64,000 bases of DNA from Rapana venosa (lineage: Eukaryota; Mollusca; Gastropoda; Neogastropoda; Muricidae). Where the stretch lies: NCBI GenBank assembly GCA_028751875.1, contig CM054134.1, forward strand, positions 47,687,345 to 47,751,344, written 5' to 3'. The position numbers were made by a program, and so were the translations under genes. The notes under the pieces were generated by a model, which saw only the letters and a program-made list of their open reading frames with translations, searched no databases and was not told the DNA's origin. This document shows positions 25,201 to 28,200 of this stretch, one piece after another (the stretch's first letter is position 1; each line of letters opens with the position of its first letter).

Positions 25201-28200
25201 AACCATTATGGCACCCTGAATGGGCCCGTGCCTGCATTTAGCCCTGTTGCCAAACCATCCAAGAGCGGAAAGGTGCCTGGCAAGAACGTTCTCACTAATC
25301 CTGGCAAACACGGCACTGGCTATGGGTAAGCTGTGTAATCTGTGCAGTTTTAAACTCCCGTATCATGAATCAAATGTGACTTGTGCTACAGTTTTAAAGT
25401 AGTGATTAAAAAGTGTGTGTGTTTGCGCATGCACACAGACCTAAATTCACACACTTTATAACTTGGTAGTTGTTTAGGGTTTAACTTATTTTGTTTCTTT
25501 AAATGTTTCCAGCTTAGATTTCTATGTTTTAAAATGAATTTTCCCATTTCATAGTTTTTGTAAGGGTTTTAATTTCATCCTGGTTTAAACAAAATTTTAC
25601 TTGGTCAGAACACCATAGCACCAATACATGAAATGAGTACAACAAGCAATGCGTATATAATGAGGTACTCTAGCATTTATATTTTCACATGAAAAAAACA
25701 TTTTATGCAAATGAACCACACAAACTGGGTATATTTTGAAAGACTTAGGGGATGACTAGGAAGGGAGAATAAAATACATATCTATATTAGTTACTTTGAT
25801 ATTTTGAAAGGAAAATGTATATATGGATTTTTCAATAGAGAGGATTTATGGACAACAAAGAGTTTGGGGACTTAACAAATCACTGTTTTATGATGACATG
25901 AGTTTACAAAAGTTGTCAGATGACAGTGATCTACATTACCATATCTTCTTCTTCTTTGTCAAACACTCAGACAGCAACTATTGTTGTCTGTTATATGAGC
26001 AAAAATGCATCTCTCTGCTGTTAAGCACCTGACAAGTCAGGCCCAGTGCATCTGACTTTGGCATAGGAGAATTGTTATGTTTTAAGTCTTTCTGGAAAGA
26101 AAAAAAAAAGGCAGGCGAATGGACCAACAAGGAAGAAAATAGGCAAGATGGAGGTGACAGGAAGAAAAGGAACAAGGCAGAAACAAAGAGAGGGATAGAA
26201 AAGAGGAAATTTCTAGCACAAAATTTCCAGAAGGTGGAGATGCTATTTATACTGACAAGCCTGCAGCATCCCCTTGGAGGAAATACCATATCTAATGAGA
26301 GATATTGCAGCTGGAAAGTATTTGAGGGATATTTATATTGTGTACAAAAAAGACTGGAAGACTTACACCCATGACATCATTCTTGAAAAGTGTCTTTGCC
26401 ATCCATAAATGCTATCTGTTTATATAAAAAAAACAACCCAACCCATGTGCCTTTTCAAATTGCTCTCATAAAAACACCGAACCATCATCTTTCCAGATTT
26501 GTCGGCGTTACGCTTGCCAAATATCCGAACAGCTTAAGTGACCCCTATGACAATGACAGGGAGAGGGCCAGGGTGGGTCAGCATTTTGATTTTGCAGTGC
26601 ATTGTGTGACATCAAAACTGTCTTTTCACTGCGTGTTTCAGAACTGGTGTCTAACTTTTTCTGTGTTTAGCTTTCTTTCAGAGTGTCTGACTCACGGTTT
26701 GCAGTGGCAGAAATGTTGTGTTTATGCTTGTGTAAAAGAAAAGGAGAAAGAAAAAAAATGAGTGTTATGCCTTTAAACTGTTTGATTGAAGAACTGAGGT
26801 TTGCTGTGGCCTAAATGTTCTGTTCATGCTTTGTGCAATAGTGTAATCTTACTGTTTGCAGTGGCATAAACTAAGTCTTACCAAAGCTTTTATGTATTAA
26901 ATGTATCTTTCTTAAACAATCTTTTTTTAAAATTTACCAACATCTTACATGTGTTCCCACAGGCACACAATGGCCTACTCTTCAGAAAACAGGTTTTAAT
27001 ATGTGCACAAGATGTTCTGCATGCGTTCGCACATGGGACCTCAGTTTATAGTCTCATCTGAAGGACTTTTGAGGGGAGTGAAGTCGGCACTGATGTCAAC
27101 TCCAGAGGACAAATCCTCTTGAACAAGATTCAAACCCAGGTCTACAGATCACAAATGCATCACTCTAACCACCAGGCTATCCCATCCCCCTGTGTGTCTG
27201 TGTGTGTGTGTGTGTGTGTGTGTGAGCGCATTTTACTTATTCTTTTATATTGAGGATAATGGAATAAGCACTCATGTGCGTTTTTACATCCAGTCCCCGT
27301 GTGTTTGCAGTTTTGTAAATTTTGTCATCTGTTCCCACCGGCACACAATGGCCTACTCTTACAAAAAGCGGAACAGGATATAACATGTGCGCAAGATGTT
27401 CTGCGTGCGTTCGCACACGGGGCCTCGGTTTCTAGTCTCATGTCTTTGATATTGATAATTCCTCTTTGTGGTTACAAACTGTTTTCTTCTTATGGGTTTA
27501 TGTAGAATCAGTAGAGCACTGCTCTCTCTCTCTCTCTCTCTCTCTCTCTCTCTCTCTCTCTCTCTCTCTCTTTCTCTTTCTCGTGTGTGCATCTTCTTCT
27601 TTGCATTGCCTGACTCTTGTGTGTGCACACGCTCTCTCTCTCTCTCTCTCTCTCTCTCTCTCTCTCTCTCTCTCTCTCTCTCTCTCTCTCTCTCTCTCTC
27701 TCTCTCAAGAAAGAATGATAGAATGGGAAACCTGACAAAATCCATCCTTTTTTAAAAAACAAAATCTAAATTCATTTAGTCAGTAGTGAGATGAGATCTT
27801 AGACTACATACATAACATAGAGAGCCATGTTCATGCACATGCAAATTTGGATTAGATGTTGGAGACAAAATGTATCTGTTGTGACTTCGAGTACTGATTT
27901 TTTTGGCCAGTTTTCCCATTTATCATTACTGATGTGTGTGAAATCGCTGTGTATTTTACAATCTGATGCATCAGTGAATAATTCTTCAGCTTAAAGCTGG
28001 TAATTGTTGTTCTTTTTTTCTATTGTTTGTGTGTCTGTTTACTTGTGTGCTGCCTTCTGCTTCTGACTGATTTGGTTTGTTTTCAATGGTGTTTGAAAGC
28101 TATGTGAGTATCACGCTGAACTCCTACCCACCGCACACGTCTGATCCATTTAGCAGAGGAATGGAAAAAATGAAGGTTGGGCTACCTTGTTATTTTGGTA

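Follow-up and report, generated by a model that had tools for sequence, protein, structure and literature searches.

The window analysed here, the whole 64 kb stretch of Rapana venosa DNA, contains a CFAP96 gene on the + strand, and its exons are listed in Table 1. When the predicted protein was used in a profile search, the a- and b-isoforms, both taken with exon 3 in its longer form, matched PF15239 (CFAP96-like) with 287.5 and 284.8 bits (E = 2.8e-85 and 1.8e-84), respectively, against a cut-off of 27. Among the homologues, cited below by P number, P0001 of Nucella lapillus matched at 80% over the query. The MRE11 gene, with Metallophos and Mre11 DNA-binding domains, was found head to head with CFAP96 at 18666-19826 on the - strand. 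An exon with the armadillo tether repeat of a vesicular transport factor, which we take to be USO1/p115, was found at 53541-53984, also on the - strand. Reverse transcriptase fragments and a transposase fragment were present at 16481-17614 (-), 14908-15375 (+) and 2682-3002 (-), and the reverse transcriptase fragment at 16481-17614 gave a PHD-finger match below the curated cut-off.

Table 1. Exons of CFAP96 and (CT)n and (GA)n tracts around exon 4b; positions are those of the window
Feature	Position	Strand	Basis
CFAP96 exon 1	22138..22237	+	ATG at 22138; translation; donor GTAAGT; N-termini of P0001 and P0002 match
CFAP96 exon 2	23387..23606	+	Splice sites, translation
CFAP96 exon 3	25188..25325	+	Likely acceptor 25188; reads KKASGLGNHYG as P0001 and P0002; donor GTAAGC
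Exon 4a (a-type mutually exclusive exon), FVGVTLAKYPNSLSDPYDNDRERAR	26497..26572	+	Splice sites, translation; 20/25 identical to Nucella P0001
Exon 4b (b-type mutually exclusive exon), YVSITLNSYPPHTSDPFSRGMEKMK	28100..28175	+	Splice sites, translation; 18/25 identical to P0002
CFAP96 exon 5	32919..33101	+	Starts KEVAQHK; accepts 4a or 4b in phase 0
CFAP96 exon 6	34093..34267	+	One base short of conserved frame (...ESYP / KHSEDPYNP...); three-frame translation against P0001 and P0002
Candidate alternative last exon, ...RTHTKYNPLLQYGRRGWGNTL stop	34882..34945	+	Translation; tail as in Littorina P0006
Standard last exon, ...RTINVQNYRSATVA stop	40126..40168	+	C-termini of P0001 and P0002 match
(CT)n tract upstream of 4b	about 27632-27706	+	Can pair with the (GA)n at 28255-28320
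(GA)n tract downstream of 4b	28255..28320	+	Complementary to 27632-27705

A second in-frame acceptor for exon 3, at 25122, adds 22 residues that are absent from P0001, P0002 and the aligned solved chains. The start at 25188 is most likely because with it the window has the ...KKASGLGNHYG found in P0001 (Nucella) and P0002. The base missing from exon 6 sits in a run of C, and the residues past the gap match P0002 almost perfectly, so that a long-dead gene is less likely than an error of the assembly or a lesion of very recent date. The short base is probably an assembly error and possibly a real recent frameshift, and it hits the a- and b-isoforms alike. The two candidate last exons give different CFAP96 C-termini, HTKYNP... 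(34882-34945) or TINVQNYRSATVA (40126-40168). The ...RSHTKYNP... tail was found in one of the 121 homologues checked, isoform X2 of Littorina saxatilis (P0006).

Between exons 3 and 5 lie two adjacent, homologous exons of equal length, 4a and 4b, which cover a single slot in the protein. The preliminary description had reported them as an apparently mutually exclusive pair of 76 bp each with common phases, and their positions, lengths and phases were all borne out, with GT-AG borders at all exon-4 sites (the slash marks the splice site: ...TTTCCAG/ATT...AGG/GTGGGT for 4a and ...TTGAAAG/CTA...AAG/GTTGGG for 4b). Spliced after GGC TAT GG/, exons 4a and 4b give FVGVTLAKYPNSLSDPYDNDRERAR and YVSITLNSYPPHTSDPFSRGMEKMK, respectively, and each runs in frame into KEVAQHK. 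The agreement of the two peptides at 9 of 25 residues was as claimed. At the DNA level 34 of the 76 positions are identical (15, 10 and 9 by codon position), and the same codon is used at only one of the nine amino acids that the exons have in common. This low DNA identity and the single codon alike indicate that the duplication is old, neither recent nor made by the assembly. The BLOSUM62 score of 4a against 4b was 53, compared to 28 for the best unrelated stretch when every 25-codon stretch free of stops was scanned on the two strands of the 64 kb window. No third copy of the exon was found on either strand of the window, the next best stretch being the one that scored 28.

Since 76 is 3x25+1, an mRNA with both exons or with neither changes frame and soon meets a TGA, which lies well before the later exon junctions. 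In agreement with the earlier reading, joining 4a and 4b led to a TGA after 14 codons of 4b, and when both were left out the TGA was the 11th codon, with the junction codon counted. An early stop well upstream of exon junctions is expected to trigger nonsense-mediated decay. Transcripts with both exons or neither, whose stop lies upstream of further introns, would be removed in this way. The claim that exactly one exon must be chosen agrees with this frame arithmetic and with the presence of either type in seven molluscan groups, described below; in its strict form it is at odds with a Biomphalaria model that holds both in frame. The choice of one among two duplicated exons is well supported.

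The same segment was then compared across homologues. A first protein search yielded 373 homologues, of which the best 120 were taken, and a second search added one. A third search with an annelid-like query yielded 476 homologues, and the best 120 of these contained 30 new proteins (P0122-P0151), which stand outside the segment survey. The protein database was merged at 90% identity, and a second version of the segment could be hidden by this merging. Clades follow from named members; the other proteins were assigned by their position on a tree built with the exon-4 columns removed. A regional protein search for the b-type gave four matches among eight candidates. P0001 from Nucella is of the a-type and P0002 of the b-type (Table 1), and across 227 columns the remainder of P0002 shares 90% identity with the window. 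As a single short contig P0002 could be a retrocopy; it is presumably spliced RNA, because its contig of 1,638 bp is shorter than the gene span of about 18 kb found here.

On the tree of 122 rows from which the exon-4 columns had been removed, a- and b-type proteins adjoin in seven molluscan groups. These are the oysters (Crassostrea virginica X3 of the a-type; Ostrea X2 and P0085 of the b-type), clams (Mya X1 a; Mercenaria X1 and Dreissena X1 b), limpets (Patella X2 a; Lottia b), abalones (Haliotis cracherodii X2 and H. asinina X2 a; H. rufescens X1 b), heterobranchs (P0026, P0028, P0033 and P0048 a; Aplysia X2, Elysia and Physella X2 b), cerithioids (Batillaria a; P0021 and P0023 b) and neogastropods, likewise with both types. 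Outside the segment, Haliotis cracherodii X2 and H. rufescens X1 were identical at 96.8% of 284 positions, Crassostrea virginica X3 and Ostrea edulis X2 at 91.0% of 288, and Aplysia X2 and P0028 at 83.6% of 287, compared to 8, 10 and 5 of 25 residues inside it, respectively. The mean identity of different-type pairs within clades (n = 52) was 0.39 inside the segment and 0.79 outside, and that of same-type pairs (n = 44) was 0.73 and 0.79, respectively, for 38 rows that had been sorted into types and clades by eye on the basis of these sequences. In windows of 25 residues, different-type pairs averaged 0.72-0.88 clear of the segment and 0.45 on it. The within-clade ranges overlap inside the segment, where the lowest same-type value was 0.48 (P0060 and P0119) and the highest different-type value 0.60 (P0056 and P0017). 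The rows that fitted neither type clearly (Gigantopelta, Pomacea, Potamilus, Solemya, the chiton Liolophura and others) were left out. The pair statistics also left out P0007-P0009, P0012, P0022, P0040, P0058, P0063, P0069, P0083, P0093, P0094, P0100 and P0121, which are molluscan or likely so, some of them for unclear type or clade.

Each type was thus met alone in a mature protein of related molluscs (P0001 for a, P0002 for b, and the pairs in seven clades). Both types in one gene were found only in the window and in Biomphalaria X1 (P0100, 342 aa), where the a-type segment, the five residues CTKVS and the b-type segment follow one another in the order of the window; other species had one type each, as expected at 90% merging. 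At least 17 of the 120 rows listed are molluscan proteins with tags of the 'isoform X1/X2' kind, a tag that by itself is silent on which exons differ. The isoforms are probably already in databases as such unremarked models. Among the open-access literature matches listed there was no description of the CFAP96 exon pair, subscription papers being mostly outside this scope. The earlier statement that no description was known therefore holds for those matches, while database models tagged 'isoform X1/X2' exist already. A single segment in vertebrates, as had been stated, fits the rows seen: no second version was found in the vertebrate and echinoderm rows examined, where the 90% identity merging would hide one. 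The vertebrate and echinoderm CFAP96 (C4orf47) belongs to the same family and has the same 25-residue slot, which aligns without gaps.

The two types differed in how well they cohere between classes. Gastropod and bivalve a-type segments agreed on average at 12.1 of 25 residues, compared to 8.1 of 25 for gastropod a-type against gastropod b-type. In a tree of 47 segments, 12 gastropod and bivalve a-type rows and two annelid-like rows formed one set with 96% SH-aLRT, in an analysis of 25 columns with 2 starred branches of 44; the Haliotis a-type rows fell outside this set. That tree was built without P0028, P0033 and P0048, which carry a 2-residue insertion, and without P0003-P0009, P0046 and several others. 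The annelid-like rows in the a-type set are P0077 and P0111, and their clade, which sits among annelid proteins and includes the b-like P0074 and P0078, may carry both types. Gastropod and bivalve b-type segments agreed at a mean of 9.9 of 25 residues, no more than gastropod a-type against bivalve b-type (10.0), and bivalve a- and b-types were still alike at 11.5 of 25. In bivalves the b-type was closer to the outgroups than the a-type (11.9 and 10.1, respectively), and in gastropods this was reversed (8.1 and 9.2). In six of seven clades the a-type resembled a-types from elsewhere more than the b-type of the same clade, and in four of seven the b-type resembled b-types from elsewhere more than the clade's a-type. 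These cross-clade comparisons are partly circular, since types and clades were assigned by eye on the very sequences compared, and a label-swap statistic does not count as a test for the same reason.

These values suggest that the pair probably predates the gastropod-bivalve split, which is more than 500 million years old; to our knowledge, few exon pairs are as old as this. From the segment comparisons, the a-type is likely to go back to one origin before the split. The b-type is weaker as one lineage, since it does not cohere across classes, and for it we infer a common origin before the split from its place in the gene. An origin of the pair before the annelids is only possible on these alignments.

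CFAP96 is present in solved doublet microtubules, namely in 8snb (there named CFAP96(C4orf47)), which we take to be from sea urchin sperm, and in 8otz, 9fqr, 9cpb and 9cpc. According to PMC11779644, 9FQR and 8OTZ are from bovine sperm, 9CPB from bovine oviduct cilia and 9CPC from porcine brain-ventricle cilia. The CFAP96 sequence is identical in the bovine sperm and oviduct entries, and in mammals one version seems to serve both sperm and epithelia. PMC12772120 counts C4orf47 with the little-studied proteins that motile ciliated cells express. By counting from alignments, the exon-4 segment corresponds to about residues 151-175 of the 8snb chain and 154-178 of the bovine 8otz chain, so that the contact it may alter can be looked up. 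The AlphaFold models had a mean pLDDT of 52.6 for P0001 (a-type) and 52.7 for P0002 (b-type), which is low confidence and insufficient for fold searches. Of the two best-predicted parts, one was a helix at residues 169-190 and 169-189, respectively, where means over blocks of ten residues rose to 75 and 74. This predicted helix starts with the second half of the segment and extends into exon 5, and a swap of exons would in these models change a loop and the start of the helix.

It is possible, if somewhat unlikely, that the same ciliated cells make both isoforms with no regulation of the choice, their diversity being kept by drift or mild constraint. The presence of CFAP96 in the doublets of both sperm and epithelial cilia of mammals, and the identity of the bovine sperm and oviduct sequences (PMC11779644), are consistent with this, as is a b-type that is not clearly one constrained lineage. 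Against it stands the a-type, which kept closer to foreign a-types in most clades and was more alike between gastropods and bivalves than the two gastropod types are to each other; this closeness across clades argues for constraint on the pattern of one version or more.

That the pair is real but not strictly exclusive, with alternative sites allowing in-frame double use as an extra isoform, we consider quite unlikely. The length of the Biomphalaria protein P0100 is, by arithmetic, that expected if its b exon starts 14 nt upstream, and in the window six GT sites 47-131 nt beyond the 4a donor would keep an open frame into 4b. In contrast, the 101 nt upstream of 4b contain no AG, the three further in-frame AGs up to 300 nt meet stops, and both segments together were found in none of the other 120 homologues examined (P0122-P0151 lie outside that set).

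An origin of the a- and b-type proteins from a pair of paralogues, in place of one gene with alternative exons, is highly improbable. Nucella lapillus does have a second, divergent CFAP96-like protein with a b-like exon-4 segment (P0093), but it is 53% identical to the query and lies elsewhere on the tree on a long branch, while the window has both exons in one gene and Biomphalaria P0100 has both in one protein. Moreover, separate genes would hardly stay up to 96.8% identical outside the segment and yet diverge abruptly at the exon borders. Equally implausible is a dead tandem duplicate in which 4b (or 4a) keeps its frame by luck: the 4b donor AAG/GTTGGG fits the consensus at 6 of 9 positions, but exons 1 and 3 score 6 too, splice sites and frame are intact despite divergence to 34 identical nucleotides of 76, and b-type proteins occur in seven molluscan clades. 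The preliminary description had named a dead duplicate as the outcome that would overturn it, and this is contradicted by the conserved b-type segment (18 of 25) in P0002 of a close relative; judged by sequence, 4b is very unlikely to be dead.

Several means by which the choice between 4a and 4b might be enforced were examined. Steric exclusion by a short intron was ruled out, the intron between 4a and 4b being 1,527 nt. Distant branch points were dropped as a trait of 4a and 4b because AG-free stretches are long upstream of exons 5 and 6 too (81 nt and over 97 nt, respectively, compared to 104 nt for 4a and 101 nt for 4b). Pairing of the docking/selector kind was sought between 15 pairs of 300-nt intron flanks, tested against 40 shuffles each and without the first 204 nt of intron 5. 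In this partial test the best pair was equalled by 3 of 40 shuffles, which is unremarkable for 15 tests. Among the best 25 of 129 pairs from an inverted-repeat search, (CT)n/(GA)n pairings of at least 60 bases, some of them perfect, were found around 4b. A further CT tract lies at 27522-27582, so that two CT tracts and one GA tract flank 4b and a hairpin of at least 60 pairs is possible. The window holds four CT and three GA tracts of at least 24 nt, and both kinds occur together in 3 of 1,264 windows of 800 nt. Looping out of 4b by such pairing is a candidate role noticed post hoc for simple repeats, and it is only a lead.

The arrangement resembles known systems. According to PMC5224494, exons Ab and 3 of vertebrate U2AF1 are duplicated and mutually exclusive. 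Stops arise in mRNAs that include both or skip both, nonsense-mediated decay reduces these mRNAs, and a few residues including part of a helix are swapped, all of which resembles the arrangement proposed for CFAP96. The U2AF1 copies, in another gene and another clade, differ by seven amino acids, compared to 16 of 25 between the CFAP96 copies, and regulators of U2AF1 are known, in contrast to CFAP96. In Dscam and srp, which are of the docking-selector type (PMC6071210), one of several tandem homologous exons is used, as in CFAP96. Unlike that type, no competing pairing stood out between the CFAP96 300-nt flanks tested.

In CFAP96, exons 4a and 4b very probably form a working mutually exclusive pair of great evolutionary age. 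One of the two would enter each mRNA, and the choice would swap 25 residues, comprising a loop and the first half of the predicted helix that continues into exon 5, while the remainder of this doublet-microtubule protein would stay constant. We infer that 4b is used in Rapana venosa, that the choice may be controlled by cell type and that it may affect axoneme contacts. A regulated switch, for example between sperm and somatic cilia as the preliminary description suggested, is a fair but speculative hypothesis.

The pair is unusual for its age and for sitting in an axonemal protein. A single conserved doublet-microtubule gene seems to offer two spliced versions, in snails and in bivalves. A bolder reading, speculative and rather doubtful at present, is that the pair is older than the parting of molluscs and annelids and has been kept either-or since then, with the versions of one gene fitting different axonemes, such as those of sperm flagella and of epithelial or larval cilia, and with vertebrates having a single version. 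Differences between sperm and epithelial axonemes are mostly attributed to different genes. If this reading is true, one gene would give different axonemes different wall proteins.
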